Part shown: in pieces, positions 33,491 to 64,000 of the stretch
How positions within the stretch are numbered: the first letter of the stretch is position 1
Layout: every line of letters starts with the position of its first letter
Source: an uncultured Oscillospiraceae bacterium
Lineage (GTDB): Bacteria; Bacillota; Clostridia; Oscillospirales; Oscillospiraceae
Length of the DNA: 64,000 bases
Assembly: GCA_947626845.1 (NCBI GenBank)
Contig: CANQTW010000002.1
Coordinates: 96,738-160,737, forward strand
Direction of reading: 5' to 3'
Notes under the pieces: generated by a model
Told to the model about the DNA's origin: nothing
Database searches by the model: none
The model's input: only the letters and a program-made list of their open reading frames with translations
Translations under genes and position numbers: made by a program

Positions 33491-33757
33491 AAAGGACTTT
33501 TTATTTTGATAGACTTGACAAGAGCAGACCAGGGCAACTGCTCGTTCATTTCTTCCTCCTCAAAGCAGAGGGAAGCCTTTGAGCCAATCAAAGACCCCTC
33601 TGCCGCGAGGGCGCTACCGGAAAGGCCCGTAGGTACTACCGACCCCCACCCCCCCGTGCGGGGCGAGGAAGGCCCGACATTTTTTCGGATGAAATTGAAA
33701 ATTTTTCTCCCATTTCGTTACGCCTGCCCCATTTTCCGAGCCAAAGGAGGGCCAGCC

Positions 33758-44768: not shown

Positions 44769-44771
44769 ACC

Positions 44772-46283: not shown

Positions 46284-46289
46284 TGAATA

Positions 46290-46814: not shown

Positions 46815-46829
46815 TAGGAGGATAAGGAC

Positions 46830-47171
46830 ATGGAAAATAACCTCACGATTGCCGCCCCGGAGGAAAACGCCCCGGAGGCGGAAACCCCCACCCTCAAGCT
46901 CAGCAAGCCTTACAACTTCGAGGGCCGTACCTTCACGGAGATCGACCTCGCCGGTTTGGACACCCTCACCGCCGATGACATGATCGCCGCCGAAAAGTAC
47001 ACGAGCCGGGCCGGGATCATTTCCCCGATCCCGGATATGACGATGGAGTACGTCTGCTTCATCGGCGCAAGGGTCTCCGGGCAGCCCATCGAGTTTTTCA
47101 AGCGCCTGCCGCCGAAGGACGCCACGGCCCTCAAGAACAAGATCACCGGTTTTTTCTACGGCGAGGGCTGA
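46830..47171 (+). CDS. Tail assembly chaperone, short form (gpE-like)
   Basis: 113 residues. LSKPYNFEGRTFTEIDLAGL and KYTSRAGIISPIPDMTMEYV match the tail assembly chaperone family of P2/Mu-type phages. Just before its stop lies T TTT TTC (47150-47156). Slipping back by one gives a longer form that continues in frame to 47329 with LSPADGSELRRACIDLSIVL and ends KEVAKFGKRK. This equals the gpE/gpE' pair of P2. Both forms normally act on the tape measure during tail assembly. Confidence 0.88.
   Translation: MENNLTIAAPEENAPEAETPTLKLSKPYNFEGRTFTEIDLAGLDTLTADDMIAAEKYTSRAGIISPIPDMTMEYVCFIGARVSGQPIEFFKRLPPKDATALKNKITGFFYGEG
47150..47156 (+). promoter_or_regulatory. Programmed -1 frameshift slippery site
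   Basis: The heptamer TTTTTTC fits X XXY YYZ in the zero frame (GGT TTT TTC). The shifted frame is open to 47329, overlapping the tape measure start by 17 bases. P2 uses TTTTTTG at the same place. Confidence 0.85.
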
Positions 47172-47312
47172 GTCCAGCGGACGGGTCGGAGCTTCGGAGG
47201 GCCTGCATCGATTTGTCGATTGTGCTTCACACAGACTTCGCCTATTTCATGCGGCTGCCCATCGAGACTTTGATCCAGACACTGAGCGACACCACAAAGG
47301 AGGTGGCTAAGT

Positions 47313-50675: not shown

Positions 50676-50677
50676 GC

Positions 50678-50887
50678 ATGGACAGCATCCTCACCATCCA
50701 GGGCGACACCTGGGACACCATAGCAAAGCGGGTGTACGGCGATGAGCGGCGTGCCCAGGATCTCATGGAGGCCAGGGCCAACATTCGGCTCCTGGATTAT
50801 GAAGTCTTCCCCGGCGGCGTCCGCGTCGCAACCCCGGAGCTGCCGGATGAGACTCCCGCATTTGACCTGCCGGAATGGAGGCGATGA
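50678..50887 (+). CDS. Tail protein X (P2 gpX, LysM-like)
   Basis: 69 residues. GDTWDTIAKRVYGDERRAQD is the typical LysM-like core of gpX, with the family's VATPELPDETPAFDLPEWRR style ending. It belongs to the baseplate hub. Start after GAAAGGGGTTCTGAGC. Confidence 0.88.
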   Translation: MDSILTIQGDTWDTIAKRVYGDERRAQDLMEARANIRLLDYEVFPGGVRVATPELPDETPAFDLPEWRR

Positions 50888-50890
50888 CCC

Positions 50891-51919
50891 GTGGAGGCGC
50901 GAAGGGCAACAGTTCACCTGATCTACAATGGCGCAAACGCCACCGGCTCCATCGCCCCCAGCCTTGCAGGCTTCTCCTACACCGACGTGGCCAGCGGGAG
51001 TAGTGACAGCATAAGCGTCGAGTTTACCGGACGCAGGTGGATAGGCCCATGGTTCCCCGTGACCGGGGATAAGCTCGTACCGACGATTCAGACCTTCAAC
51101 TGGAGCTTTGACGGGCAATTCATGGCCTTCCCCTGCGGGGCCTTCATGGTCGATGATTTCAGTTTTTCCGGCGGTCCGCCCATCGGCCTGTCCCTCGAAG
51201 CCCTCGCAATACCGACCGACAGCAGCTTTAAAACCACGAAGCGCACGATCACCTACGAGGACGCCACCCTTCAGGAGATAGGCCAGGAGATAGCTGACCG
51301 GGCCGGGATTGCCTTGGTCTACGAGGCAACGCCCCCGATATCCATCAAGCGGGTGGAACAAAGCAACCAGGATGACTGCGAGTTTTATAACAAGCTCGTG
51401 GGCGAATACGGCCTGCAGCTCAAGATCTACAACAACCGCCTGGTGGTTTTTTCGGAGGCAGACTACGAGGCAAAGGCCCCAAAGGTCACTTTGACAGAGG
51501 CAGACTTCGATCCAAATTGGAGCTTCAACACCTCCCTCCTTGGCGTCTACACCGGAGTCAAGTACCAGTACACCAACCCGGACAAAAACAAGACCTACAC
51601 CGTGGAGGCCGGAGACGGCAACCGCATCCTGACCTGCAACGATGCCGCCGACAATCTCGGAGAGGCGATCAGCGTGGCCCTGGCGGCCATCAACAAAGCC
51701 AACCGGGGGACCACCACCATGACGCTGACCATGAAGGCAATCCCCGGCCTCATCGCCACGGATTGCGTGGCCATCGTCGGCCTGCAGAAGCTCGACGGAA
51801 AATACTACATCGAAAAGATCACCCATAGCGTGGGGAGCGGGTACAAGATGGCCCTGACCCTTCGCCGGGTGGAAAAGCGGTTCACGTCCCCCACAAAGGC
51901 CGTGGAGAGCTCGGCATAA
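50891..51919 (+). CDS. Late control / baseplate hub protein D
   Basis: 342 residues beginning with GTG. SYTDVASGSSDSISVEFTGR and PCGAFMVDDFSFSGGPPIGL are characteristic of the gpD/gp27-like hub fold; VALAAINKANRGTTTMTLTM near the end. It forms the ring joining tube and spike. Confidence 0.85.
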   Translation: MEARRATVHLIYNGANATGSIAPSLAGFSYTDVASGSSDSISVEFTGRRWIGPWFPVTGDKLVPTIQTFNWSFDGQFMAFPCGAFMVDDFSFSGGPPIGLSLEALAIPTDSSFKTTKRTITYEDATLQEIGQEIADRAGIALVYEATPPISIKRVEQSNQDDCEFYNKLVGEYGLQLKIYNNRLVVFSEADYEAKAPKVTLTEADFDPNWSFNTSLLGVYTGVKYQYTNPDKNKTYTVEAGDGNRILTCNDAADNLGEAISVALAAINKANRGTTTMTLTMKAIPGLIATDCVAIVGLQKLDGKYYIEKITHSVGSGYKMALTLRRVEKRFTSPTKAVESSA

Positions 51920-51933
51920 GAGGGAGGGAAACA

Positions 51934-52434
51934 GTGGATAATCAGCAAATCCGCGTCGGACGGATCTCAAGCGTCAACGCTAAAGACGGGACCGCCCGCG
52001 TCGTGTACGCGGACAGAAATGACAGCACGACCCCGGAGATCCCGTTTCTGGCCTGGGAATTCCTCATGCCGAAAATAGGGGACCAGGTGCTGGTGGCCCA
52101 CCTCCCAAACGGGACAAGCCGGGCCGTCATCCTCGGACCCTTCTGGTACGACGGACACAGGCCCAGCGGGGGACGGGACGGCCTCTACAGGCAAGAGTAC
52201 ACAAACACCCTGGGTGGGGACGCCGTGGAGTATGACCCAAAGGTCCCCTCCCTGACCATCAAGGCTTGTGGCTGCACCGTTACCCTGGAGAATGGCAAGA
52301 TCATCATCGACGCCCCCGCCGGAGTAGAGGTGAGCACCACCGTAAAGGCCCAAACAGAGGTGGAGGCGGCTGGCGTCAAACTCACCACCCACACCCACAC
52401 CTGCCCGGACGGCGAAACCAGCGGGCCGCATTAA
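51934..52434 (+). CDS. Baseplate spike protein V
   Basis: 166 residues, GTG start after GAGGGAGGG. An OB-fold-like N-terminus (VGRISSVNAKDGTARVVYAD, then IGDQVLVAHLPNGTSRAVIL) is followed by a beta-helical tip with TTHTHTCPDGETSGPH; the His-x-His ending suggests metal binding at the needle point, as in gpV spikes. Confidence 0.88.
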   Translation: MDNQQIRVGRISSVNAKDGTARVVYADRNDSTTPEIPFLAWEFLMPKIGDQVLVAHLPNGTSRAVILGPFWYDGHRPSGGRDGLYRQEYTNTLGGDAVEYDPKVPSLTIKACGCTVTLENGKIIIDAPAGVEVSTTVKAQTEVEAAGVKLTTHTHTCPDGETSGPH

Positions 52435-52449
52435 AGGGAGGGTCGGGAT

Positions 52450-52845
52450 ATGATAGTCGGCAATTGGGGGACCGCCCTCGTTTTCAGGGTGAGTGAACGC
52501 GAGGCGCTGCTCCTCCAGAATTTGACCCGGACGGTCGGAGCGGAATGGACCACCCATAGCCGCATCGGCCAAAAAGACCAATCCGAGTTTTTGCGCCCCT
52601 CCCTCCAGCAAGTCAACTTCACGGTGGTCTTTGACGCCACCCTCGGAGTCCGGCCCAGGGCCTCCCTGGACCGGCTGGACAGCCTGGTGGAGTACGGGGC
52701 CATTTACCCCCTGGTCATAGGGGGCCGGAGGGTCGGCCATTACCGCTGGAAGATCAACAGCATCAGCGAGGCATGGGACACCATTCTCAGCGGCGGGGAG
52801 CTCATGCGGGCTTCAGTCACGGTGACCATGCAAGAGTACCTATAA
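52450..52845 (+). CDS. Tail protein U-like
   Basis: 131 residues: VSEREALLLQNLTRTVGAEW and SLVEYGAIYPLVIGGRRVGH. The fold pattern and position suit P2 gpU, a small baseplate/tail protein. Moderate certainty because the gene order (after V) differs from P2. Confidence 0.7.
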   Translation: MIVGNWGTALVFRVSEREALLLQNLTRTVGAEWTTHSRIGQKDQSEFLRPSLQQVNFTVVFDATLGVRPRASLDRLDSLVEYGAIYPLVIGGRRVGHYRWKINSISEAWDTILSGGELMRASVTVTMQEYL

Positions 52846-52858
52846 GGGGGGAGCGAAT

Positions 52859-53167
52859 ATGGACGTTATAGACGTTGAGGTTTCGTTTGAATACGGGACC
52901 GGAGACAACCCCCTGGAGAAAGAGATCATCCGCAACATTCGGACGATCCTGACAACGCCCATCGGAACCTGCCCCCTTTACCGGGACTTCGGAATCGACG
53001 TTTCCATGGTGGATGAGCCGATGGACGTGGCGAAAAACCTCTACGCGGTGGCCGTCATGGAGGCCGTGGAGAAATGGGAGCCCCGCGTCCAGGTCCAGGA
53101 AGTGACCTACACCCCGGACGAATCCGGACAGCTCAAAGCAAAGGTGGTGATTGAATATGCCCAATAA
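52859..53167 (+). CDS. Baseplate wedge protein (gpW/gp25 family)
   Basis: 102 residues. EIIRNIRTILTTPIGTCPLY and RDFGIDVSMVDEP are the conserved gp25-like lysozyme-fold motifs. It links sheath to baseplate. Overlaps the following J gene by 11 bases. Confidence 0.88.
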   Translation: MDVIDVEVSFEYGTGDNPLEKEIIRNIRTILTTPIGTCPLYRDFGIDVSMVDEPMDVAKNLYAVAVMEAVEKWEPRVQVQEVTYTPDESGQLKAKVVIEYAQ

Positions 53168-54314
53168 CGTCCTGAAGCCGCTGGAGGATCTGCCGGACAT
53201 TTCCTTCATCGAGAACGACACCATCGACGCCATGATGCAGAGGATGGTCTCCAATTGGGAGGCCCGGTACAAAGAGATCACGGGCCGGGAAGTGAGCCTG
53301 AGCGACTCCGACCCGATGAGGATAGCCCTCTACGCCTGCACCCTGGAGCTTTACCAGATAGAGCAATGCGTGAACCGGGCCGGGAAGCAGAACCTCCTGA
53401 AATACAGCTACGACGGCTTCCTGGACAACCTCGCCGCAAACATGGCGGTGAACCGAAACGAGGCAAGCGCCGCCCGGACGGTGATCCGCTTCACGGCTTC
53501 GGAGACAAAGACCTACGCCCTGGCGATCCCGGCGGAAACCCGCCTGACCAACGGGGCCGGGGTGTTCTTCAAGACCATCGCCTACGCCGAAATCGCCCCC
53601 GGAGATGCCTATGTGGACGTGGAGGCGATATGTACCGAAACCGGGGAACAGGGCAACGGCTACTTGGCCGGACAGATCAACGTCTTGGTGGACCCACTCC
53701 CGTATATCGTGACCGTCGCAAACACCGCCACCACCGCCGGAGGGGCCGGAGTGGAATCGGACGAAAGTCTCAGAGAGCGCACCTACCTCGCCCCCTCCAG
53801 CTTCAGCGTGGCGGGGCCGGATGGGGCCTATGAGTATTGGGCCAGGACCTACAACTCCGGCATCGGCTCGGTCAAGGTAACCAGCCCCGCCCCCGTGGAG
53901 GTCGTGATCTACGTTTTGATGACCGACGGCAAGCTCCCGGAGGAAAGCGTCCTCACCGGCCTGGAGGAATACCTGCAGGACGAAAAGATCAGGCCCCTCA
54001 CCGACAAGGTGACGGTCAAGGCCCCGACGGCCCTGAATTTCGGCATTGACCTGACCTACTACATCAACGCCAGCAACAGCGCAACAGCCGCCCTCATCCA
54101 GACTCAGGTGACAAAAGCCGTCGAGGAATACGTCACCTGGCAGACCACAGAGATAGGCAAGGACATCAACCCCTCGGAGCTGATCAGCCGGGTGGTCAAG
54201 GCCGGGGCGAAGCGGGTGGAGGTGACATCCCCCGTCTTTACCAGGGTCGGCGGGGAGCAGGTGGCCCAATGCACCAGCAAGACCGTCAACTACGGAGGGC
54301 TCGAAGATGACTAA
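53157..54314 (+). CDS. Baseplate protein J
   Basis: 385 residues. LPDISFIENDTIDAMMQRMV at the start, then VSLSDSDPMRIALYACTLEL and GAGVESDESLRERTYLAPSS are typical of the P2 gpJ/Mu gp47 wedge family. The ATG at 53157 is preferred over TTG 53151. Overlaps protein I by 8 bases. Confidence 0.9.
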   Translation: MPNNVLKPLEDLPDISFIENDTIDAMMQRMVSNWEARYKEITGREVSLSDSDPMRIALYACTLELYQIEQCVNRAGKQNLLKYSYDGFLDNLAANMAVNRNEASAARTVIRFTASETKTYALAIPAETRLTNGAGVFFKTIAYAEIAPGDAYVDVEAICTETGEQGNGYLAGQINVLVDPLPYIVTVANTATTAGGAGVESDESLRERTYLAPSSFSVAGPDGAYEYWARTYNSGIGSVKVTSPAPVEVVIYVLMTDGKLPEESVLTGLEEYLQDEKIRPLTDKVTVKAPTALNFGIDLTYYINASNSATAALIQTQVTKAVEEYVTWQTTEIGKDINPSELISRVVKAGAKRVEVTSPVFTRVGGEQVAQCTSKTVNYGGLEDD

Positions 54315-55389
54315 GCTCTACGACGGGCAGATCCAGGACCTGCTCAACAACAATTTCCGGCACGACCCGGAGATCAAGGCCCTGGGCTTCGCAATACGCG
54401 AGGAAAAGCGCCGAATCCTGGACCTGGCTCTCAAATCCCGCGTCAGGGCGGCGGTGGATATGCTGGACGAAGATATCCTGGACATCCTCGCCGTGGAGCT
54501 CCGATCCCCCTATTATTCCAGCGATATGGAGATAGGCCAAAAGAGGGAGATCATCAAGAACACCATCCGCTGGTATTTCAAAGCCGGTACCCCGGCGGCG
54601 GTGCGGGAGATGGTCGCCGCCCTTTTCGGAAACGGTGAGGTGGAGGAATGGTTCGACTTTACAGAGCCGCCCTTTACCCCCGGCACCTTCGACATCATCC
54701 TGGTTGACGCCCGAATGACAGAGGACATCGTCGAGAGGTTCCTGGCCATCATCCAGCGGGTCAAAAACACCCGCTCCCACCTGCGGCGGGTCTCGGTGGA
54801 ACGCAACGGCTCCATGGAGGAATTCGCCGGAGCCGGGTCCCTCTCGGAGCCAGAGATCCCCGTGGTCAGCGGCGGCGGCCACACCGACAACGGCATAGAC
54901 ATCAAGGCCCACGCCGGAGCCGGGGCCACGTCCTCCCCAGGAGAGGCCGTCACCAATAACCCCACGCCGATGACCGGGGCGGCCACGGTCCAGGAATCCG
55001 CAAAGGCGATAGGAGCCGCCGCCCCTTCGGAGGCCGTGACCAACAACATGGCCGCAAGGGACGCCGGAGCCGCCGGTGAGATCAGGGCCGGGTCCGGCTT
55101 GACTTCCGCCCCGGCCCTGGCCGTCACCAATAACCAGGTGCCCAGGGCCAGCAGCGCCGCCGGACCATCCATAGCCGGGGCCGGAGGGACCTCCGCCCCG
55201 AAAACGACCATAACGAACAACGCACCCGCCAGAGCGGGAGCCGGGAGCCTCGCGCAACGGATCGGAGCGGCGGTGGCCAGTGCGGTTCACATCATCGTAA
55301 CCAACTGCCAAGGAGCCAATACCACAAAGGCCGGACCGGGGCAAAGGGTAGCCGCAGCGGCGGTGGCGTGTTCAAATATCAACATCTAA
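54307..55389 (+). CDS. Tail protein I with C-terminal 29-residue repeats
   Basis: 360 residues. Residues 1-170 are P2 gpI-like (LGFAIREEKRRILDLALKSR, then WYFKAGTPAAVREMVAALFG). After about 180 the protein is an Ala/Gly/Ser-rich array in which (V/I)TNN recurs every 29 residues exactly: coding positions 54949, 55036, 55123 and 55210, with VTNC at 55297. A regular solenoid or collagen-like stalk is likely, giving a rigid link between baseplate and fibre. P2 gpI lacks such an extension. Confidence 0.85.
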   Translation: MTKLYDGQIQDLLNNNFRHDPEIKALGFAIREEKRRILDLALKSRVRAAVDMLDEDILDILAVELRSPYYSSDMEIGQKREIIKNTIRWYFKAGTPAAVREMVAALFGNGEVEEWFDFTEPPFTPGTFDIILVDARMTEDIVERFLAIIQRVKNTRSHLRRVSVERNGSMEEFAGAGSLSEPEIPVVSGGGHTDNGIDIKAHAGAGATSSPGEAVTNNPTPMTGAATVQESAKAIGAAAPSEAVTNNMAARDAGAAGEIRAGSGLTSAPALAVTNNQVPRASSAAGPSIAGAGGTSAPKTTITNNAPARAGAGSLAQRIGAAVASAVHIIVTNCQGANTTKAGPGQRVAAAAVACSNINI

Positions 55390-55402
55390 GGAGGCAAGCA
55401 CA

Positions 55403-55951
55403 ATGGCCGGAATTTTTCAGGAGGCCAAGCTGACGCACAAGGGCATAGCCCTGCTGGCGAAAGCCCAGGCCGGAAGATGCACGATCAAGCTGACGAAAGC
55501 GGCGGCTGGTGCCGGGTCCTACGGCCCCGGAGAGGACATCGCCACACGGACCGCCCTGAAAGACCAGCGCCAGACCTTCCCGCTGAGCACCGTGACGGTT
55601 CAGAACACGTCCAACGTTTTCGTGAAATTCGTCATGAGTAACAAGCAGGAGAGCGGCAACCTGGAGCGGGGCTACTACGTCAAGGAGATCGGTATTTTTG
55701 CCCAGGACCCGGATGACGGGGAAATCCTCTACGCCATCGCCATCGGCGTGGAGAACCAGTGGGATTATATGCCCGCCTACAATGACCTCATCCCGTCCAC
55801 GATTACCATCGACTTCTTGGTAGAAGTCAGCAACGCCGAAACCGTCACCATCGAGGCCCCCAACCAGATGTACCTGTACGACGAAAAAACCGGAGACAAG
55901 TACATCCTCGGAGTGGAGAACGGCCTGCTCTACGTCAAAAGGGAGGATTAA
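55403..55951 (+). CDS. Tail-collar fibre protein
   Basis: 182 residues. LTHKGIALLAKAQAGRCTIK at the N-terminus and GYYVKEIGIFAQDPDDGEIL are the hallmarks of phage tail-collar/fibre N-terminal domains (DUF3751-like). It ends in a short beta part rather than a long fibre, so the receptor-binding role has probably passed to the next protein. AAGGAGGCAAGCACA before the ATG. Confidence 0.82.
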   Translation: MAGIFQEAKLTHKGIALLAKAQAGRCTIKLTKAAAGAGSYGPGEDIATRTALKDQRQTFPLSTVTVQNTSNVFVKFVMSNKQESGNLERGYYVKEIGIFAQDPDDGEILYAIAIGVENQWDYMPAYNDLIPSTITIDFLVEVSNAETVTIEAPNQMYLYDEKTGDKYILGVENGLLYVKRED

Positions 55952-55953
55952 AA

Positions 55954-57237
55954 ATGAGCGATAAAATTTTCGTAGCAGACAAAGAAACGCTGGACAAGGT
56001 TTATAACCTTCTGGCCACGGAGCCGGTCTACGGCTTCATCGAACACAACGCTATCTTGGCCCCCGGAGAGCGGATCGAGTACATCGGGGTAAACAAGAAT
56101 TTCAAGCCCATTTCCGTCACCATGGGCGGCGGCTACTCCCTCAACGATTGGGCGGACTTCCCCTGGCTCAAGGCCAACAAGCCCTACATGGTCAAGAGCG
56201 ATGGTACCCCGGCCTACCGCCTCAAAGAGACGGACTACACGAAGAAAGAGGACGGCACCGCCTCCGACGTTTCCAACGCCGATTTTGACGGCGGCGCATT
56301 CTCCTGGGGCATGAAGATCTACAAGCGGGAATACATGGCCGGGGACGACCGGGTCGTGCTTTTCCGCTTCGAGGCGGCGGATGGCTTCGAGCCGGTCGGC
56401 TTCATCGACCCGGACGGCAACGAGCTGGAGGGCGTCTGGATCCCCATGTTCTACGGAGCCACCACCGGCGAAACCGAGAGTGAAAAGATGCGCAGCATCG
56501 CCGGGACCCAGCCCCAGCACACCGTCAACACCGAGAAGCAGAAGGCCGCCATCGACAAGGTCGGCAACAGGGCCGCCTTCTTCGGAGGTCCGATCACCAA
56601 CACCCTGGTGGATCTTGAGATCATGTTCGCAAAGACCACCAACCTCCAGGCGGCCTACGGCCAGGGCAACTGCTCCGGCTACGACGCCAGCGCGACCCCC
56701 ACCATGGGTGTCCTCATGAACAACGTGGTCGGCGGCGGGCAGTTTTACGGGACCAGCGACGGCAAGAGCCTGAATAAGATCTTCCACAGCATCGTCCTGG
56801 GGAGCTACCAGATTTGGTGCCGGGACCCCTACCTGCTGGCCGTCAACGGCCGCTTCAAGGTCTCCCCCAATTACAAGTATGACCTCGACGGGACCACCTA
56901 CCAGGACACCGGGATCACCGTCCCGGACGATGCGGAGGGCTGGGACCAGAACAAGAACAAATTCACGTACCCCTCCTTCTACCGGACGGTTCCCCACTTC
57001 GGAAACCTCCCGGCGGAGACGATGACCGGCGGGTCCACCGTGACCGGAGGCTGTGACGGCCTGTGGAGGCATAAGCCCAGCGAGGTTTTTGTGGCGGTTT
57101 CGCTCCGGTTTGGCCGTTGCGCCTGCGGTGCCACTTGCGGTGGCCGGTCCTTGCACTTCACCGACGCCGCCGGGGACGCCTACTGGGGCTTCGGCTCGGC
57201 CTTGCTTCTTTTCCCACCTGTTGGCGCGACGGCGTAA
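55954..57237 (+). CDS. DGR target protein: variable tail-tip / receptor-binding protein
   Basis: 427 residues. The N-terminal two thirds carry structural patterns (WADFPWLKANKPYMVKSDGT, then FSWGMKIYKREYMAGDDRVV). The last 60 residues form a C-type-lectin-like variable domain of the DGR type: FVAVSLRFGRCACGATCGGR and AGDAYWGFGSALL. Residues about 381-416 are coded by VR and can be rewritten from the template repeat. Diversified residues correspond to Asn, Tyr, Thr and Ile codons in TR. It is the last gene of the baseplate/fibre cluster, so it very probably binds the host surface. Confidence 0.9.
   Translation: MSDKIFVADKETLDKVYNLLATEPVYGFIEHNAILAPGERIEYIGVNKNFKPISVTMGGGYSLNDWADFPWLKANKPYMVKSDGTPAYRLKETDYTKKEDGTASDVSNADFDGGAFSWGMKIYKREYMAGDDRVVLFRFEAADGFEPVGFIDPDGNELEGVWIPMFYGATTGETESEKMRSIAGTQPQHTVNTEKQKAAIDKVGNRAAFFGGPITNTLVDLEIMFAKTTNLQAAYGQGNCSGYDASATPTMGVLMNNVVGGGQFYGTSDGKSLNKIFHSIVLGSYQIWCRDPYLLAVNGRFKVSPNYKYDLDGTTYQDTGITVPDDAEGWDQNKNKFTYPSFYRTVPHFGNLPAETMTGGSTVTGGCDGLWRHKPSEVFVAVSLRFGRCACGATCGGRSLHFTDAAGDAYWGFGSALLLFPPVGATA
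57093..57202 (+). repeat. DGR variable repeat (VR)
   Basis: 110 bp at the 3' end of the target gene. It matches TR at all 87 non-adenine positions. The first 22 bases and the last 10 (GGCTCGGCCT, the short initiation-side match) are identical. The 17 differences all lie where TR has A: 17 of the 23 template adenines are changed, to C, G or T. No other mismatch is present. Confidence 0.95.
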
Positions 57238-57287
57238 CCGTCACGCCTGGGGGGTCTGGGGGTGCGCCGTAGGCGCAACTCCCCCAG
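57223..57287. other. Two hairpins immediately after VR
   Basis: First stem GGCG-C-GACGG / CCGTC-A-CGCC (57223-57247) has the target stop codon TAA in its loop and begins 21 bases after VR. The second, CTGGGGG...GCGCC / GGCGC...CCCCCAG (57256-57287), has a GTA loop. In the Bordetella phage DGR a hairpin just beyond VR marks the homing target; these are the likely equivalents (inference). Confidence 0.6.
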
Positions 57288-57361
57288 GGGACGCAGGACA
57301 AAGTACGCAGAAACGATAAAACGGAATACCAAAACAACAGGGGAATGCGACGGCGCTGCTG

Positions 57362-57471
57362 GGCGGTTTCGCTCCGGTTTGGCAATTGCAACAACGGTGC
57401 CAATTGCGGTGGCCGGTACTTGAACTTCAACAACACCGCCGGGAACGCCAACTGGAACATCGGCTCGGCCT
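57362..57471 (+). ncRNA. DGR template repeat (TR), part of a non-coding RNA
   Basis: 110 bp, same length as VR, intact AAC/AAT codon pattern (two AAT, eight AAC plus TAC, ACC, ATC in the VR reading frame). It lies 159 bp beyond VR and 204 bp before the reverse transcriptase start. The downstream spacer contains a CGGGCAG/CTGCCCG stem (57601-57631) that could position the cDNA primer. TR is transcribed and copied with adenine misincorporation in known DGRs. Confidence 0.93.
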
Positions 57472-57675
57472 GGTTCTATCAACCAAAAGGAAGGATCAGC
57501 CTTCAAAAAAAGCCGCCGCATTTCCTACACCGCTGGCCGTTGAAACACGGCTTACCCGCCATGATTGGTCTGGGGAGTGGTAAATAAATCCGATACAGGG
57601 CGGGCAGTAAAGCGGTCGCACCTGCTGCCCGTAGGAGATAGAAGAAAAAATATCCCCATAGGAGTGCAACCCCGC

Positions 57676-58854
57676 ATGAGCAAAAGAGAACCAGGGCACA
57701 AAGAGCACAAATATCTGTATCGACAGATGCTGGACGAAGGCATCATCCGAAAGGCATTCCGTAAGCTCCGCAAAGGCAAGGGCAAGCGCCCGGAAATCCA
57801 GGCGATAGAGGCCGACTTCGAGAACGAGGTCCAGGCCATGAGGGAAATGATCCTGAACACCCGGCCTCCGGAGGTCCCGGTCCCAAACCCCGAAAAGGCA
57901 TACAAACCCCATGAGCGCCACCCCAAGCGCATTTTCGAGCGGGGCAAATGGCGCAACATCTGCAAGCCGGAGATCCACGAGCAATGGCTCCACCACATCA
58001 TCGTCCTTGTTTTAGAGCCGATAGTCACCGCCACGGCCTACCGCTTCAGCTGTGGGAGTATGCCGAAAAAGGGCGCACACTTTGGAAAGAAACAGATCGA
58101 GAAGTGGATCCGGCAGGACCCGAAAGGCGTCCGGAATTTCGCAAAGACTGACATCCGCCATTTTTACGACCAAATCCGCCTCAAGGTTTTGATGCGGGAG
58201 TTGGCGATTCGGATAAAGGACGCCTGGTTTCTGTTCATCATTTGGCTCTGCCTGAAGGATTTCAAGCGGGGCTTGCCCCTTGGCTTCTACCTGTCCCAAT
58301 GGCTGGCGAATTACCTACTGGAGCCGCTGGACCGGCTTCTGACCCGGACCCTTGGCATCAAAAAGACCGTCAGGTACATGGACGATATAACCATGTTCCA
58401 CCCGAACAAAAAGACCCTTCACCGGGCCATCCTGGAGGCCACAAAGATGCTGGGACAGCGGTTCAGGCTTCGACTGAAGCAAAACTACCAGGTCTGTAAA
58501 TTCTGGTTTAAGGGCAAGAAAAAGACCGTGGGGAGGCCAGTCGATTTTATGGGCTTCCTGTTCTTCAGAGACAGGACCACCATTCGGAAGCGGACCATGC
58601 TCAGAGCCACCAATCTGGCAGGCCGCCTTGGGAGGATGGCGGAGGCCGGAAAGAAGTTTTTCAAGCGCCACGTTTCCGCCATGCTCAGCTACATGGGCTG
58701 GTTCACCTGCACCGATACCTACAAGTGCTACGAGGAACGGATCAAGCCCTTCGTCGAGGTCCGGAAGCTAAAGCGCATCATTTCAAAAATTCAAAGGAGG
58801 CAAAATCACCATGACCAACTGGACCAAAGAATCTTGTGCCAGCAAGCCGGATGA
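57676..58854 (+). CDS. DGR reverse transcriptase
   Basis: 392 residues. RT motifs in order: CKPEIHEQWLHHIIVLVLEP region, FAKTDIRHFYDQI (metal Asp of motif A), GLPLGFYLSQ (199-208; the SQ instead of SP separates DGR enzymes from group II intron RTs), RYMDDITMF (YMDD 234-237) and DFMGFLFFRDRTTIRKRT (thumb side). No maturase or endonuclease domain. It copies the TR RNA into mutated cDNA. The ATG at 57676 follows GGAG. The 3' end overlaps the next gene by 44 bases, and that gene's AAAGGAGG lies inside it. Confidence 0.93.
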   Translation: MSKREPGHKEHKYLYRQMLDEGIIRKAFRKLRKGKGKRPEIQAIEADFENEVQAMREMILNTRPPEVPVPNPEKAYKPHERHPKRIFERGKWRNICKPEIHEQWLHHIIVLVLEPIVTATAYRFSCGSMPKKGAHFGKKQIEKWIRQDPKGVRNFAKTDIRHFYDQIRLKVLMRELAIRIKDAWFLFIIWLCLKDFKRGLPLGFYLSQWLANYLLEPLDRLLTRTLGIKKTVRYMDDITMFHPNKKTLHRAILEATKMLGQRFRLRLKQNYQVCKFWFKGKKKTVGRPVDFMGFLFFRDRTTIRKRTMLRATNLAGRLGRMAEAGKKFFKRHVSAMLSYMGWFTCTDTYKCYEERIKPFVEVRKLKRIISKIQRRQNHHDQLDQRILCQQAG

Positions 58855-59074
58855 GCTCCAGCCCATCGCCCCCGGTCTGCTGATCCAGCGCCGCAACATC
58901 GCCCAGGTGGAGCACCCGGCGGTGGAGGGCAGTGACGCCTACACCACTTGGGACTGCGAGAGCCGGGAGATCACCGTCTCGGAGTACCAGATGCTCCAGT
59001 CCATCCAGGACATCGACAACAGCAAGGCAATCGACGCCTACACCATGCAGCTCATCGAGGAAGGAGTGCTTTAA
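58811..59074 (+). CDS. Small phage tail-region protein
   Basis: 87 residues starting inside the RT gene with AAAGGAGGCAAAATCACC. The N-terminal part (LQPIAPGLLIQRRNIAQVEH) is beta-like and the C-terminal part helical (VSEYQMLQSIQDID). This resembles small XkdW-like proteins that precede XkdX in tail regions. Its length and composition do not suggest Avd (too short, not basic). Confidence 0.65.
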   Translation: MTNWTKESCASKPDELQPIAPGLLIQRRNIAQVEHPAVEGSDAYTTWDCESREITVSEYQMLQSIQDIDNSKAIDAYTMQLIEEGVL

Positions 59075-59075
59075 A

Positions 59076-59228
59076 ATGGCCAGTATTTTGATCAACAGCC
59101 TGATCCGGCTCTACAAGTCCGGGCAGCTCACGAAAGAGCAGATCGGGGAGCGGGTCGCAAAGGGGACCATTACCCCGGAGGACTACAAGGCCATCACCGG
59201 CGAGGATTACCATGCCGATGATGAGTGA
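59076..59228 (+). CDS. XkdX-family small protein
   Basis: 50 residues: SLIRLYKSGQLTKEQIGERV, then KGTITPEDYKAITGEDY, a close fit to the XkdX family found after tail fibre genes in phages of Firmicutes. Function unknown. Confidence 0.8.
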   Translation: MASILINSLIRLYKSGQLTKEQIGERVAKGTITPEDYKAITGEDYHADDE

Positions 59229-59412
59229 CCCCCTCGAAGTGGTGGACGCACAGGCGACCATCATCGCCCTTCAGAGCGAAACCATCAATGAGCTTTTCCA
59301 GCTGCTGATGCAACACATCTCAGCGGAAGAAGCTGACCGCCTGCCCTGCGTGGCAAAGATTAACAAGGCGGCTGTGATCCGGAGACGGATCCAGCCGCCG
59401 GAAACGAGGTAG
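59212..59412 (+). CDS. Small helical phage protein
   Basis: 66 residues, helical (ATIIALQSETINELFQLLMQ), basic C-terminus. Overlaps the XkdX gene by 17 bases. ATG 59221 is an alternative start. Unknown function. Confidence 0.55.
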   Translation: MPMMSDPLEVVDAQATIIALQSETINELFQLLMQHISAEEADRLPCVAKINKAAVIRRRIQPPETR

Positions 59413-59415
59413 CCC

Positions 59416-59694
59416 ATGTACATAACAGCCAACACCATCATCCTGGCAGCCTCCCTTTTGGGGGCGATCAGCGCCCTGGTCGGAGCCATCATCGCCGTCT
59501 ACAAGGTCATTGAGAACAACAAGAGGCAGAACGAGGAAATCAAGGCCATGAAGTCGGAGCTGACCATCGTCTGCTACGGCTTAAAAGGGGCTTTGCAGGG
59601 CCTCATCGAACAGGGGTGCGACGGCCCCTGCAAGGACGCCCTCAACCTCCTGGACAAGCACCTCAACAAGAGCGCCCACAAACCCGACCTGTAA
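59416..59694 (+). CDS. XhlA/holin-accessory-like membrane protein
   Basis: 92 residues. One membrane segment at about 6-30 (TIILAASLLGAISALVGAII), followed by a coiled coil (KVIENNKRQNEEIKAMKSEL) and a Cys-containing helix. The position before the endolysin supports a lysis accessory role, as for XhlA-like proteins. Confidence 0.65.
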   Translation: MYITANTIILAASLLGAISALVGAIIAVYKVIENNKRQNEEIKAMKSELTIVCYGLKGALQGLIEQGCDGPCKDALNLLDKHLNKSAHKPDL

Positions 59695-59710
59695 AGGGAG
59701 GCGCAAAGAG

Positions 59711-60019
59711 ATGGCGATTGTAAGCCTCCGGGGCAAGAGGGTAAAGAGGCCGGAGGCGAAGCCCCCGAAAAAGCGGGAATGGATGAAGATGCTGACCCTT
59801 TGGGCCGTGGCCATCGCAACGGCGGCGGCCCTGGGTCCCCTCATCCTCGCCGCCTTCGACAAGCTCTGCCCCTTCGACACCTCCCCGGTTTTCGCGGGGT
59901 GTATTACGGTCATCGTTACCTATGCGGCCAAAAGCTACGGCGAAAAAGCCAGCCGCAACAAACACGGGCTCGACGAAAACGGTCGGCCCTGGACAAAGGA
60001 GGAAATAAACAATGGGTAA
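59711..60019 (+). CDS. Holin-like membrane protein
   Basis: 102 residues: basic N-terminus, two membrane segments at about 26-48 and 57-72, polar C-terminus with [17 protein letters not shown]. Such two-helix proteins immediately upstream of an endolysin are usually holins. Overlaps the endolysin start by 8 bases. Confidence 0.65.
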
Positions 60020-60947
60020 ATGTTACGCATCCACCGTCCTGGCCATCGCGGAGCGGGAGATCGGCTACCTGGAGAAAGAAACCAACTCCCAGCTCGACAA
60101 CCCCACCGCCAACGCCGGAGATGGCAACTGGACCAAATACGGACGGGACATCGACAGCAAATGGCCCACCTTCTACAATGGGAAAAAGAACGGGTACGCC
60201 TGGTGCGATCAATTCGTCGATTGGTGCAACCTCACGGCCTTCGGCCTCCAGGACACCCTCCGGCTCCTGTGCCAGCCCCTCAGATCCGAGGGGGCCGGGT
60301 GTACCAGCTCCGCCCGGTACTTCCGGGAGGCGGGGCGGCTTTTTGATGAGCCGAAGCGGGGGGATCAGATCTTCTTCCCGGACAGCTCCGGCAAGGCCAA
60401 CAGCTACGGCCACACCGGCCTGGTGAAGAAATACGAGGGCGGCATCATTACCACCATTGAGGGCAACAGCTCCGACGGCGTGAGATACCGGACCTACGTC
60501 TTCAGCAAGAGCAAGGGCTACAAATTCGGACGCCCGGACTACGATGAGGAACCCGGCACCGAGGCCCAGCCCGGAGGCGGCACCGGCGGCGCAACAGGCG
60601 AAACCACCTACACCGTCAAGGCCGGGGACACCCTCTCCAGGATCGCCGCCAAGTACGGGACCACCTACCAGGCCCTGGCCGCCTACAATGGCATCGCAAA
60701 CCCCAACCTCATCTACGTGGGGCAGACCATCCGGATCCCCGCAACACCGGCGGCGGCCCCGGAGATCAAAAAGGGGATGCAGGTCAAGGTCAAGAGCGGG
60801 GCCAAGACCTACACCGGCGGCGGACTGGCGTCCTACGTCTACACCACCACCTACACCGTGATCCAGGTCAACGGCGACCGGGTCGTGATTGGCCTCAACG
60901 GGGCCGTCACGGCAGCCGTCCACGCCGGGGACCTCATCCCGGCATAA
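60012..60947 (+). CDS. Endolysin: CHAP-like amidase with LysM and SH3-like domains
   Basis: 311 residues. The N-terminal CHAP/NlpC-like domain (about 5-180) has catalytic Cys in [12 protein letters not shown] and His in [12 protein letters not shown] Gly-rich linker leads to a LysM repeat ([20 protein letters not shown], ending YVGQTIRIP). A C-terminal SH3-like region ([16 protein letters not shown]) finishes it. It degrades peptidoglycan at the end of infection. GGAGGAAATAAACA precedes the ATG. Confidence 0.9.
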
Positions 60948-60966
60948 TGCGCAAAGGAGAAACACC

Positions 60967-61167
60967 ATGGAAGAACTCTCAAACCTCCTCAAGAGGATCG
61001 CAGCCCTCATAAGCGTCAAGAGCATCGTCACCCTGATTTTGACCATCGTCTTCGCCGTCCTCACCCTCCGGGGACAGGTCAGCCAGGACTTCATGACGAT
61101 CTACGCCGTGATCATCGCTTTTTATTTCGGCATTCAGAGCACCAAGGCCAAATCCGACGGCGAATAA
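60967..61167 (+). CDS. Small holin-like protein
   Basis: 66 residues with two membrane helices (about 18-35 and 43-58: VTLILTIVFAVLTLRG, then FMTIYAVIIAFYFG) and a basic N-terminus. Found after the endolysin; this is the second holin candidate. AAAGGAGAAACACC before the ATG. Confidence 0.75.
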   Translation: MEELSNLLKRIAALISVKSIVTLILTIVFAVLTLRGQVSQDFMTIYAVIIAFYFGIQSTKAKSDGE

Positions 61168-61244
61168 CAGCGCCCCGCCGGATTACGCCCTGTCGCGCCC
61201 CAGGATGGCCCGTGTGGGCCTTTTGTATGGGGTAAGGTAAAATT

Positions 61245-61275
61245 ACACCCCCGGACCGCTCCGGGGGTGTTTTTT
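61245..61275 (+). terminator. Terminator of the late operon
   Basis: ACACCCCCGGA (61245-61255) pairs perfectly with TCCGGGGGTGT (61260-61270), then a six-T tract. Confidence 0.92.
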
Positions 61276-61391
61276 CTCGTGGAAAAAGGCCAGGTGGACG
61301 CCGGAGGGGTAGACCGTGAACAAGGAGCAAAAGAAAAGAGCGGCGTCGGGCCCCGTGTGGAGCCGTAGCCGCTCAACCCCTCACCCCCCCG

Positions 61392-61598
61392 TCAATAGAG
61401 GGTGATCGTGAAGCCGTTCCGCTTGAGGTAGGCCGTAGCCTGAGCCTCCTGGGTGAATGACCGGGATTTTTTCTTTTGCCGGTCCCGGCCCAGGACAACG
61501 GTGTCGCCGATGCCCTTGATGACCCATTGGAGCTTCCCGTTCTTTTCGACCAGGTTATAATAAACCATGTCGCCCTTCGCGTTTGCCAGCTTTGCCAT
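61392..61598 (-). CDS. Small right-end protein A
   Basis: 68 residues, basic, beta-rich with a helix near the end (KSRSFTQEAQATAYLKRNGF). Last gene of a three-gene leftward operon that starts at the 62.1-kb promoter-operator. GGGGGTCTGAAAA precedes the ATG. Not recognised. Confidence 0.6.
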   Translation of the reverse strand: MAKLANAKGDMVYYNLVEKNGKLQWVIKGIGDTVVLGRDRQKKKSRSFTQEAQATAYLKRNGFTITLY

Positions 61599-61611
61599 TT
61601 TTCAGACCCCC

Positions 61612-61812
61612 TCAAAATTCAACAGAGACGATGCCATTGTGGAACAGGTCCAGGACATAGTCGATGCGGATGTGGCTCACGATCCCGGTCCGGAGGTCCA
61701 CCACGGTGAACACCCCGTCCTCGGCCTTCAGGACCTTCTCGACGATCTCGGTCTCGCCGGTTTCGTCGGCGTCCCGGATGATGTACATGATGTCCTCGAA
61801 ATTGCGATCCAT
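61612..61812 (-). CDS. Small right-end protein B
   Basis: 66 residues, acidic, alternating strands (VVDLRTGIVSHIRIDYVLDL). AGGAGGACTAAAAA precedes the ATG. Middle gene of the operon. Not recognised. Confidence 0.6.
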   Translation of the reverse strand: MDRNFEDIMYIIRDADETGETEIVEKVLKAEDGVFTVVDLRTGIVSHIRIDYVLDLFHNGIVSVEF

Positions 61813-61815
61813 TTT

Positions 61816-62061
61816 TTAGTCCTCCTTTTCGATCTTCGCCAGGATGAGCTCCATGGCCTTCTTTGCGATTTCGGTAGCGGGGCGGACGTCCCAGCCCCGG
61901 TCGTAATTCAGGATGGTCTCGCCGTTGATGGAGGCCCACAGCTTGGAGATGCGGCCACCCTCGATCCCGAACTTGGACCCCTCTTCAAAGACCTTCGCCT
62001 CGTAACGGACCCTCACGTTTTTGGACCCCTGGGGGATTTCAATAAGACCGAACTTCCACAT
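61816..62061 (-). CDS. Small right-end protein C
   Basis: 81 residues. FGLIEIPQGSKNVRVRYEAK and SKLWASINGETILNYDRGWD give a beta-rich fold with a C-terminal helix. GGAGGACAAAAAA precedes the ATG. First gene of the operon. Unknown family; the group resembles lysogenic-conversion or defence cargo. Confidence 0.6.
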   Translation of the reverse strand: MWKFGLIEIPQGSKNVRVRYEAKVFEEGSKFGIEGGRISKLWASINGETILNYDRGWDVRPATEIAKKAMELILAKIEKED

Positions 62062-62075
62062 TTTTTTGTCCTCCG

Positions 62076-62178
62076 TTCTTTAGGATGGTCTTATATTACC
62101 ATACAAACGCATGGAAATCAAGTCTTTTTTCATCGTCATTTTTAACAAAAATCCATGCGTTTGTATGGTTATAATGAC
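62076..62178. repeat. 103-bp promoter-operator module, copy 1
   Basis: Contains the 16-bp operator CCATACAAACGCATGG (62099-62114) and its exact inverse (62153-62168). The first sits in the 17-base spacer of a leftward promoter. The module is repeated almost identically at 63768-63870. Confidence 0.8.
62093..62121 (-). promoter_or_regulatory. Leftward promoter with operator in its spacer
   Basis: Minus strand TTGATT (62121-62116), 17 bases, TAATAT (62098-62093). The whole operator fills the spacer, so a bound repressor would block RNA polymerase. Confidence 0.75.
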
Positions 62179-62181
62179 GAC

Positions 62182-62210
62182 TTGACAAAACCATACAAGC
62201 GCATTATAAT
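62182..62210 (+). promoter_or_regulatory. Rightward promoter of the XRE regulator
   Basis: TTGACA (62182-62187), 17 bases, TATAAT (62205-62210). The spacer contains CCATACAAGCGCAT, most of an operator, which predicts autoregulation. Confidence 0.8.
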
Positions 62211-62240
62211 AAAGCCAAATACCACAAGGGAGGCAAAGAA

Positions 62241-62501
62241 ATGGCAAGACGCATGACCATAACCGATGACATGATCAAGATAGACCGAAAGTGCATAGAG
62301 GCAGGCATAACCCGGTCGGAGCTTTCTCGCCGGAGTGGCGTCCCGATCAGGACCCTCGAAGCCTACGCAACCAGACACAGGACCCCCCGTGACGTTTACG
62401 TCCTCCAGCGAATCTCCAAGGTCCTGGGATGCGCCATCGAGGATCTGATTGAGCCGGAGCCGGGACCAGGGCAAGAAAATGGAGGCGGGGAGGATGCTTG
62501 A
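62241..62501 (+). CDS. XRE-family regulator of the right-end cluster
   Basis: 86 residues, nearly all helix-turn-helix (ITRSELSRRSGVPIRTLEAY, then VLQRISKVLGCAIEDLIEPE). The short acidic tail is GENGGGEDA-like. GGGAGGCAAAGAA precedes the ATG. The three CCATACAA-type operators beside it make it the probable repressor of both small leftward operons. Confidence 0.85.
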   Translation: MARRMTITDDMIKIDRKCIEAGITRSELSRRSGVPIRTLEAYATRHRTPRDVYVLQRISKVLGCAIEDLIEPEPGPGQENGGGEDA

Positions 62502-62697
62502 CCAAAGGCAATCCACGGTCCAGGCCCCGGACCCGGTCGCTGATGCGGCGGGATCTCCGAAAGAAGCCCAGGACGCCGATGGGCGTCCCCGTGGCCGTTT
62601 CAAAGACCTCCCCGGCCCATGGGTCAAGTATGTCCGCGAAAGTGGAGGGGAGAGGTTGATAGATTGGGAGGACCCCCGCCCACGGGTCCTCTGGTAA
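62494..62697 (+). CDS. Small polar protein after the regulator
   Basis: 67 residues, Pro/Asp/Gly/Arg-rich, probably disordered, ending GERLIDWEDPRPRVLW. The ATG at 62494 has GGAGG eight bases upstream and overlaps the regulator stop. Role unknown. Confidence 0.5.
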   Translation: MLDQRQSTVQAPDPVADAAGSPKEAQDADGRPRGRFKDLPGPWVKYVRESGGERLIDWEDPRPRVLW

Positions 62698-62741
62698 AAA
62701 GAAGCCCCCGGCCATTGCCAGGGGCGCAGGAGGTAAAGGAC

Positions 62742-62939
62742 ATGACCAACTACGAGCGGATACGCCAACTTGAGCCTTACGAGATGGCGATGGTGATGAA
62801 CAACATCCAAGAGCACTTGTGTCAAAAGATATGTCCCAGGGATAAGGAGGATCGGTGCAACGAGGATTGCAACAACGGCCTGACGGAATGGCTCTGCGCA
62901 CTATACGATCCGGCCTCCCCGGCGTGGGAGAGAAACTAA
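62742..62939 (+). CDS. Small Cys-containing protein
   Basis: 65 residues. Helical N-terminus (EPYEMAMVMNNIQEHLC), then Cys in QKICPRDKEDRCNEDCNNG, enough for a zinc site. GGAGGTAAAGGAC precedes the ATG. Common in style among small phage proteins; no known function. Confidence 0.6.
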   Translation: MTNYERIRQLEPYEMAMVMNNIQEHLCQKICPRDKEDRCNEDCNNGLTEWLCALYDPASPAWERN

Positions 62940-62953
62940 TCCAAGTGTCAGGC

Positions 62954-62996
62954 AGGCGGAAGCCCCCGGCCATTGACCGGAGGCTTCCGCCTTTTT
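62954..62996. terminator. Convergent terminator
   Basis: AGGCGGAAGCC pairs with GGCTTCCGCCT, with an inner CCGG/CCGG pairing, then a five-T tract on the plus strand. It separates rightward and leftward small genes. Confidence 0.85.
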
Positions 62997-63184
62997 CATT
63001 TCTTCACGCTGGCGGCCCCGGCCCGGTAGGCCCTCTCCAGGGCTGCCTGCAGGCTCCTCACGCTGATGCAGCCCCGGTCCGAATCAAAGAAGTCGTAACC
63101 ATCTGACCCCATTTCCTCAATCCCGAACCCGAACACCTCAAGGGCAATTTTCTCAACGGCTTTTTCTTCGGCTGTTTTTTTCAT
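62996..63184 (-). CDS. Small right-end protein D
   Basis: 62 residues, helical, Glu/Ala-rich (EKAVEKIALEVFGFGIEEMG, then SVRSLQAALERAY). The ATG at 63184 has GGGGGATCGGGAA ahead. Last of a second leftward trio. Not recognised. Confidence 0.6.
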   Translation of the reverse strand: MKKTAEEKAVEKIALEVFGFGIEEMGSDGYDFFDSDRGCISVRSLQAALERAYRAGAASVKK

Positions 63185-63198
63185 TTCCCGATCCCCCT

Positions 63199-63516
63199 TC
63201 AAAATTCATACCCGGCACACCTGGCGGTTTCAACCACGGCATTGTAGGTGCGCTTCCCGATGGTGTCATACCAGCGGGCCTTATAGGTGATGCCATTCTT
63301 CATGTAGGTGACCTCACAAACCCCGCGGGGCTGGTTCACGAACACCCGGACGGTGTAGGTCTCGGTGTGCTTGCCATACCAGGCGACCTCGATCTCCTGG
63401 GACCAGGTCCGCTGGAGGATCACACCGCCGACACAGGCGCGGTGGACGGTGCCCTCGATGGGCATCTCGGAGAATCCGTTCTCCTTCAGAGCTTCGACCA
63501 ATTCAAACTTTTTCAT
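63199..63516 (-). CDS. Small right-end protein E
   Basis: 105 residues, beta-rich with conserved-looking aromatic pattern (YTVRVFVNQPRGVCEVTYMK, then ARWYDTIGKRTYNAV). AGGAGGACTTGAAA before the ATG at 63516. Unknown family. Confidence 0.6.
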   Translation of the reverse strand: MKKFELVEALKENGFSEMPIEGTVHRACVGGVILQRTWSQEIEVAWYGKHTETYTVRVFVNQPRGVCEVTYMKNGITYKARWYDTIGKRTYNAVVETARCAGYEF

Positions 63517-63542
63517 TTTCAAGTCCTCCTCGTATTTTCGGC

Positions 63543-63752
63543 TCAGCACCCTGCAGCGGTCAGGAGCTCGGTCAGCACCCGCTGGGCCTCGCGGTTCCCC
63601 TTGGCAATCTGGTCAACGTACCCTTTGCAAAGGACCACTTCATCCAGGCCGTTCACCGCGAGGGTGTATTCATGGGATCCGTACACGCGGACCACCTCGT
63701 TCCAGAGCTTCAAGGTCTTGGCGTCGATTGCGTTCAAACCGGTTCTTTTCAT
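63543..63752 (-). CDS. Small right-end protein F
   Basis: 69 residues, helical (AIDAKTLKLWNEVVRVYG, then LCKGYVDQIAKGNREAQRVL). First gene of the second leftward operon, about 35 bases below the promoter-operator copy 2. TGGAGGCCCCAAAA precedes the ATG. Unknown family. Confidence 0.6.
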   Translation of the reverse strand: MKRTGLNAIDAKTLKLWNEVVRVYGSHEYTLAVNGLDEVVLCKGYVDQIAKGNREAQRVLTELLTAAGC

Positions 63753-63767
63753 TTTTGGGGCCTCCAG

Positions 63768-63870
63768 TTCTTTAGGATGGTCTTATATTACCATACAAGC
63801 GCATGGAAATCAAGTCTTTTTTCATTGTCATTTTTAACAAATTTCCATGCGTTTGTATGGTTATAATGAC
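63768..63870. repeat. 103-bp promoter-operator module, copy 2
   Basis: Near-identical to the module at 62076: operator CCATACAAGCGCATGG (63791-63806), inverse copy CCATGCGTTTGTATGG (63845-63860) and the same flanks. Confidence 0.8.
63785..63813 (-). promoter_or_regulatory. Leftward promoter of the second small operon
   Basis: Minus strand TTGATT (63813-63808), 17-base spacer occupied by the operator, TAATAT (63790-63785): the same layout as at 62093-62121. Confidence 0.75.
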
Positions 63871-63877
63871 AACAAAA

Positions 63878-63905
63878 AAGCACCTGGACCGTAGACCAGG
63901 TGCTT
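63878..63905 (-). terminator. Terminator for the leftward gene at the window edge
   Basis: AAGCACCTGG and CCAGGTGCTT form a perfect 10-bp stem; on the minus strand a T-run follows. Confidence 0.75.
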
Positions 63906-63911
63906 CAATTT

Positions 63912-64000
63912 TTAGCGCCGCTGGGGTAGCGGCAAGGCCAGAACGAACACGGATCCAACGAAATAAATCGCCGTTTCCGGTTCGCCTGGCTCCCCATTGG
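63912..64000 (-). CDS. C-terminal end of a membrane protein (partial)
   Basis: The last 28 codons of a minus-strand frame are visible, ending AIYFVGSVFVLALPLPQRR and TAA (63912-63914), with a terminator just beyond. The hydrophobic stretch suggests a membrane segment. It may be host DNA or further prophage cargo; too little is visible to name it. Confidence 0.45.
   Translation of the reverse strand, partial: NGEPGEPETAIYFVGSVFVLALPLPQRR

Follow-up and report, generated by a model that had tools for sequence, protein, structure and literature searches.

Results

A tail gene, a repeat pair and a reverse transcriptase form one cassette

We analyzed a 64,000-nucleotide stretch of DNA from an uncultured Oscillospiraceae bacterium (assembly GCA_947626845.1, contig CANQTW010000002.1, positions 96,738 to 160,737 of the forward strand), referred to here as the window, in whose numbering positions are given. 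Toward the right end of the window, a gene for a tail protein (the target, P0001) carries a variable repeat (VR) near its 3' end, a matching template repeat (TR) lies downstream of the gene, and a reverse transcriptase (RT, P0002) follows, with a structured RNA in the spacer between TR and RT (Table 1). We consider it almost certain that the locus, within the tail genes of a likely prophage, represents a diversity-generating retroelement (DGR), which likely copies TR with errors and puts the copy in place of VR. A preliminary description of this DNA had already identified a DGR here, and the identification is supported by adenine-only differences between TR and VR, the relatives of the RT, the predicted fold of the target and the pattern of variation among siblings.

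Table 1. Positions of the cassette, its candidate pairing elements and adjoining genes in the window
Feature	Position	Strand	Remark
Tail-collar fibre N-terminal protein, 182 aa	55403-55951	+	Pfam PF12571, 4.3e-11; phrog_7037; phrog_5302 positions 2-137
DGR target gene (P0001), 427-aa tail protein with predicted C-type-lectin-like C-terminal domain	55954-57237	+	
VR	57093-57202	+	Near 3' end of target gene
GC-rich inverted repeat after target stop codon	57246-57288	+	Nested stem inside; candidate homing hairpin/cruciform
TR	57362-57471	+	23 adenines
ATCGG near TR 3' end	57459-57463	+	Complementary to CCGAT 57590-57594 in RT-4 RNA; candidate template-primer duplex
TTCTATC directly 3' of TR	57474-57480	+	Complementary to GATAGAA 57637-57643; candidate closing helix
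Rfam RT-4 RNA (RF03025), full length, in TR-RT spacer	57526-57643	+	cmscan 120.6 bits, E 1.8e-23
DGR-type RT (P0002), 392 aa	57676-58854	+	PF00078, 2.7e-16; phrog_1423; best PDB match 8ub7
p87, acidic 87-aa uncharacterized protein	58811-59074	+	phrog_20201; overlaps last 44 bases of RT

A repeat search recovered VR and TR as a pair of 110 nt each with 85% identity, and a base-by-base script found 17 sites that differ and 93 that are identical. Every difference falls on an adenine of TR (8 A-to-G, 6 A-to-C and 3 A-to-T, read from TR to VR); none of the 87 other positions of TR is changed, and 6 of its 23 adenines are unchanged in VR. The hypergeometric chance that 17 random differences would all hit 23 of 110 positions is 2.6e-15. 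Computation thus reproduced the coordinates, length, adenine count and adenine-only pattern (17 of 17) that the preliminary description had given. In the frame of the target, the TR adenines occupy 12 first, 11 second and no third codon positions, no difference between TR and VR falls on a third position, and no A-to-N change in TR can produce a stop codon. The adenines touch 13 codons, 10 of which are AAC or AAT and can yield 15 residues and no stop. We rejected the idea of extra VRs, as only VR and TR came up when the window was scanned with the full TR and the assembly with a 39-nt head pattern allowing at most 3 mismatches. Separately, several relatives also carry the word ACAGGGGA (57337-57344) a little 5' of TR, a possible marker of the template RNA's 5' part or of the point where reverse transcription ends.

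The target gene continues for 35 nt beyond VR. In a predicted model of moderate confidence, the best fold match of the target is the DGR protein TaqVP of Thermus aquaticus (5vf4), although the two share only 13% identity. As in other DGRs, VR thus appears to fall within the 3' end of a gene whose product has a lectin fold (CLec), and the target would be a receptor-binding protein whose tip varies.

The RT frame is open from ATG 57676 to 58854 and encodes RYMDD and GFYLSQ, consistent with the earlier claim of an enzyme with YMDD and LSQ motifs after TR. The same-frame ORF begins further 5', at TTG 57565, but we took the ATG as the start because AGGAG stands before it. The family of P0002, phrog_1423, also contains Brt of Bordetella phage BPP-1; the nearest solved protein by sequence is the BPP-1 DGR RT, and the predicted model (pLDDT 70.5) matches four DGR ribonucleoprotein structures best, followed by group II RTs. 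Thus, family, PDB relative and predicted fold all assign P0002 to the DGR lineage. In a maximum-likelihood tree of 32 RTs, P0002 stands in a 7-row clade (support 100/100) with six RTs from loci that have TR and VR, and a separate clade (support 100/97) contains five rows labeled group II, one of which (L074) scored just below its cut-off. Of the 18 intended DGR rows, the tree lacks two (L007 and L015), and L005 and the outgroup row L076 are probably wrong frames; the deep order of this tree is weak, long branches meet, and the link between the P0002 clade and Brt is left open. The phylogeny, which the preliminary description had named as a test of its RT assignment, places the enzyme with RTs from TR/VR loci and apart from the group II RTs.

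Sibling copies differ in VR

A metagenomic copy of the target (P0003) has a 98% identical protein with no difference outside VR. All 9 differences (residues 388, 391, 394, 401, 403, 404, 408, 410 and 412) lie in the 13 TR-adenine codons, compared to 0 in the other 414 residues, and each variant residue is one that the TR of the window can encode; the comparison is of proteins, in which silent changes are invisible, and P0003's own TR lies outside it. Since P0003 is identical outside VR, every other amino-acid change in the protein predates the diversification. Similarly, when P0001 is compared with 120 listed homologues (out of 1053 found), TR-adenine codons make up the ten most variable columns.

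At the DNA level, five sibling loci of a relative (L045-L049) have VR differences that all fall on TR adenines in 9 of 9 differing pairs, with 9 to 15 differences in each; the tenth pair (L047 and L048) is identical. Four of these loci (L045-L048, viral contigs) are identical in the 1000 bases upstream and the 1200 that follow TR while their VRs vary; the flanks of L049 differ. Thus, we found hypervariable VRs beside constant TR and flanks among siblings, for this phage at the protein level. The preliminary description had staked its claim beforehand on siblings whose VRs would vary at TR adenines alone; this holds for P0003 (9/9) and for L045-L049 (9/9 pairs), with two exceptions elsewhere that are weighed in the Discussion.

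The TR-RT spacer contains an Rfam RT-4 RNA

The spacer belongs to the RT-4 family by its Rfam match, which exceeds the gathering threshold of 73.5 bits and covers positions 1-118 of 118. With E up to 1, 56900-57800 gave no match to any other Rfam family; in particular, the Phage_DGR RNA (RF03022) was not found there, compared to 104.7 bits for the BPP-1 control. The Rfam name is silent on DGRs, and beyond the model the window has TR and two candidate pairings that fall outside its bounds or cross them. RT-18, RT-2 and Phage_DGR are similar Rfam entries. A promoter and terminator scan found no sigma-70-like promoter in 57000-57720.

We aligned the RNA from 21 of the 32 loci with an RT at least 50% identical (alignment A4; left out were 7 identical copies, the near-copies L051 and L061, and L025 and L034, which are without the anchor word). 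Consensus folding and pair counting gave 95.9% paired cells and changes on both sides in 16 of 22 pairs; neither the 500 shuffles nor any slid version reached the covariation score.

RT-4 was present in all 22 scanned loci with an RT at least 50% identical. Across 15 scanned DGR loci with TR and VR, RT-4 occurred in 3, RT-18 in 7 (including the second DGR of this genome, described below), RT-2 in 1 and none of these in 4. When 398 genomes of the phylum were searched by RNA alone, RT-4 was found in 2 (one being this genome), both with TR/VR and an RT, and RT-18 was found in 4 (3 above the cut-off, one being this genome), all with an RT and 3 with TR/VR. An RT-4 sequence word retrieved 29 viral contigs, several of them already present in earlier locus sets, and the RT start was reckoned 54-116 nt downstream in all 29. 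TR and VR were found in 22 of these by a strict test and in L103 with two non-adenine differences; the other 6 have at most 427 nt of upstream sequence. No publication linking RT-4 to DGRs was found in the literature searched, which did not cover the presumed source paper of the RT-n motifs, reportedly Weinberg 2017. In the available part of PMC8143477, Weinberg 2017 is the source given for two protein domains, and PMC4424553 has only an older paper among its references.

Candidate pairings between the TR end and the RNA, and a candidate hairpin after VR

Two candidate long-range pairings connect the end of TR to the RT-4 RNA. ATCGG and CCGAT form 5 of 5 pairs, G-U included, in 39 of 44 unique regions (window included) and 4 of 5 in the remaining 5, and their changes across regions are absent or one-sided. 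TTCTATC and GATAGAA form 6 or 7 contiguous pairs in 39 of the 44 regions (best of 26 placements); GATAGAA is identical in 43 of 44, and its near constancy means that the candidate closing helix shows no covariation. In BPP-1, priming is presumably from A56 onto G117, which are seen here only as bases in partly complementary stretches. According to the available part of PMC12875486, BPP-1 cDNA is primed by an internal spacer adenine within IMH* at the TR end.

Downstream of the target stop codon, CCCCCAGG (57281-57288) can pair with CCTGGGGG (57246-57253) or, alternatively, over 7 bases with CTGGGGG (57256-57262). Of 32 loci, counting the window, 28 have a stem of at least 7 bp. In the sequence and size of the loop and in the distance from VR, however, they depart from the form described for phage DGRs, which in the available part of PMC3240598 is a GC-rich stem of 7-10 bp with a 4-nt GRNA loop, 4-34 bp after VR. 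Since no T-run follows the hairpin, we disfavor reading it as a terminator. The terminator scan, which covers loops of 3-8 nt and so does not reach this hairpin, returned 4 sites (1.2 expected), two of which overlap the VR end.

No Avd was found, and p87 adjoins the RT

Avd is essential in BPP-1. The preliminary description had called the DGR complete, which stands for TR, VR, RT and target but not for Avd, for which we found no gene. No match to bAvd or to PF05635 was found in the assembly (90.9% complete), in a search whose control genomes were also without a match; phmmer identified no Avd-like ORF among 802 ORFs from 44001-64000 of the window and 39 kb before it; and no Avd family was among the Pfam matches of the tested neighbor proteins, compared to 7.3e-36 for the BPP-1 Avd control. 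Thus, neither an avd gene nor the RF03022 RNA, both taken as marks of the Avd-dependent (BPP-1-type) DGR, was detected in these searches. In the available part of PMC5883640, Avd homologues are ascribed only to phages Mushu and Lagaffe, and another small protein is supposed for the remaining phages.

The gene for p87 overlaps the end of the RT gene. Searching with p87 alone led to 72 viral contigs, in all of which the RT lies directly upstream, and the overlap stays nearly constant at about 40 nt among those examined; conversely, a p87 homologue followed a close RT in all 63 fetched stretches with room on the 3' side (duplicates included). We found p87 in 3 of 34 congeneric genomes, always next to an RT of the P0002 type (two of these RTs being 33 and 37% identical), and in 2 of the 398 phylum genomes, the same two that have RT-4. 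It was not found in 17 contigs with related baseplate genes (37-45% identical), at least 3 of which end too early; 11 of these contigs have a fibre homologue and one (L211) a distant RT. The net charge of p87 is -9 (family range -9 to -16), compared to +6 for BPP-1 Avd, and XkdX (PF09693) follows it.

The probable prophage, a second DGR and the closest known systems

The genes of the region run from terminase, portal, head protein, sheath, tape measure, GpU, baseplate J and tail protein I to the fibre N-terminus, followed by the target, the DGR, XkdX, a weak holin match and an endolysin with LysM-like matches. The region is that of a contractile-tail phage. On the minus strand, 12502-14169 codes for a large serine recombinase, and the whole set probably forms one integrated prophage. 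An ORF at 33506-35131 combines a ParB-like N-terminus with a DNA methyltransferase C-terminus. The fibre N-terminus and the target (junction 55951/55954) are separate genes here and in the Faecalibacterium phage FP_Epona, and a single phrog_5302 profile covers both halves, on the basis of which the 182-aa protein is possibly the anchor of the target protein.

A second DGR lies about 26-28 kb before the window (C2:68925-70600 of the assembly; L015, L040). Its VR and TR, of 143 nt, differ at 15 sites, all TR adenines, with the same 269-nt offset, and its target is also phrog_5302; it has RT-18 RNA in the spacer, an RT 33% identical to P0002 and no blastn match to the first cassette. P0002 has a match in 12 of 60 relatives (this genome possibly counted), several with TR/VR. 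DGR-like RTs were also noted in two congeneric genomes (L007, L018 and L022 in G021; L008 and L016 in G012).

This kind of cassette is already known, and its nearest named system is the DGR of FP_Epona, published in PMC5883640 (available in part). The two share the gene order fibre, target, RT, p87 and XkdX, VR and TR in matching places and RT-4 RNA in the spacer, with RTs 62.7% identical and cassette DNA 68% identical; they differ in the sequences of TR, VR and target and in the VR-TR offset (257 in FP_Epona and 269 here). The BPP-1 DGR (mtd/avd/brt) resembles the cassette in RT family, tail target, a hairpin after VR (a candidate one here) and adenine-specific differences in the TR/VR body, to which BPP-1 adds non-adenine differences at the 3' end; it likewise has a structured spacer RNA, with Phage_DGR where RT-4 lies here. 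Active DGRs in other Faecalibacterium prophages are described in the available part of PMC11792537.

Discussion

The DGR reading is carried by the repeats and their adenine-only, codon-phased differences, by the family of the RT, by the RT-4 RNA in the spacer and by sibling differences confined to VR. We propose that a single RNA would run from before TR to the RT start, and that its RT-4 part would hold the RT. An internal adenine at or beside CCGAT, paired with ATCGG at the TR end, would serve as primer for cDNA synthesis. Errors at adenines likely arise as the RT copies the template RNA, and the cDNA would then replace VR, aided by the GC-rich hairpin. New residues in the lectin-like C-terminal domain would alter what the tail protein binds, so retargeting the phage. 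The Avd step of BPP-1 would be either dispensable here or carried out by a different protein, p87 being one candidate.

Several observations weigh against this reading or qualify it. One of 17 VR differences between L027 and L029 lies off the TR adenines, and the TR/VR pair of L103 has 2 non-adenine differences besides its adenine changes, from which it follows that TR or VR can drift; the sibling pattern predicted in the preliminary description is thus not without exception. One of five covariation measures of the spacer RNA, further pair types, was reached by 74 of 500 shuffles. Both long-range pairings are near-invariant and cross each other, and so are without covariation support. The distance from VR to the hairpin is 43 or 53 nt, and the family's loops span 4 to 27 nt and are not GRNA. 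The contig stops at the right end of the window, so the prophage may be cut. No Avd was found although it is essential in BPP-1. Finally, the case is one from sequence, and transcription, cDNA and change of VR in culture would be its consequences.

We considered that the cassette might be a former DGR that is now inactive, with VR differences frozen and sibling differences that predate the last event. The 6 of 23 TR adenines that are unchanged in VR could also have been left by one past event, and our comparison was of assembled sequences. However, the RT is open with YMDD intact, and P0003 differs at nine VR residues and nowhere else; we regard inactivity as improbable, and the cassette is probably active. 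The alternative that the RT is a group II intron, retron or defense enzyme and the repeats a coincidence is so implausible that we reject it. The top NCBIfam model for P0002 is group_II_RT_mat (TIGR04416), but at 85 bits against a curated cut-off of 300, and the weak matches to many defense-RT models are likewise seen with BPP-1 Brt. The tree separates P0002 from the five group II rows, its relatives carry adenine-only repeats in the same layout, and the TR/VR pattern by itself already refutes this explanation.

The role of p87 is a different matter. As a candidate accessory protein of the DGR, p87 might take over the Avd step; against this, p87 is acidic and placed in the tail module. We lean toward the view that p87 is an ordinary tail-module gene outside the DGR and that the RT-4 RNA alone replaces Avd. 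XkdX follows p87, and the strong negative charge is opposite to that of BPP-1 Avd. Its position is one that we take to be that of xkdW in Bacillus PBSX. This view must contend with the RT directly upstream, at a near-constant overlap, in every p87 contig, with the adjoining RTs of P0002's kind in all three congeneric genomes, with the coincidence of p87 and RT-4 in the same two phylum genomes, and with the 17 baseplate-related contigs in which p87 was not found, although their identity is modest and some of them are short. A broader proposal, that there is an Avd-free branch of DGRs in which RT-4, RT-18 and RT-2 are scaffold-and-primer domains of the template RNA and p87 (phrog_20201) substitutes for Avd, we consider rather doubtful in this full form.

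The cassette is one more member of a large known class, and the parts worth following are the assignment of the RNA and p87. The orphan Rfam families RT-4, RT-18 and RT-2 are tied to DGRs by their place between TR and RT, and this position gives them a testable job, that of holding the RT and priming cDNA. Similarly, p87 is a concrete candidate for the small protein that the available part of PMC5883640 supposes for DGRs lacking Avd. Should the RNA prove sufficient by itself, one RT and one RNA would make up the simplest DGR. Together, TR, RT and the matching tail gene would let the phage keep rewriting its receptor-binding tip.
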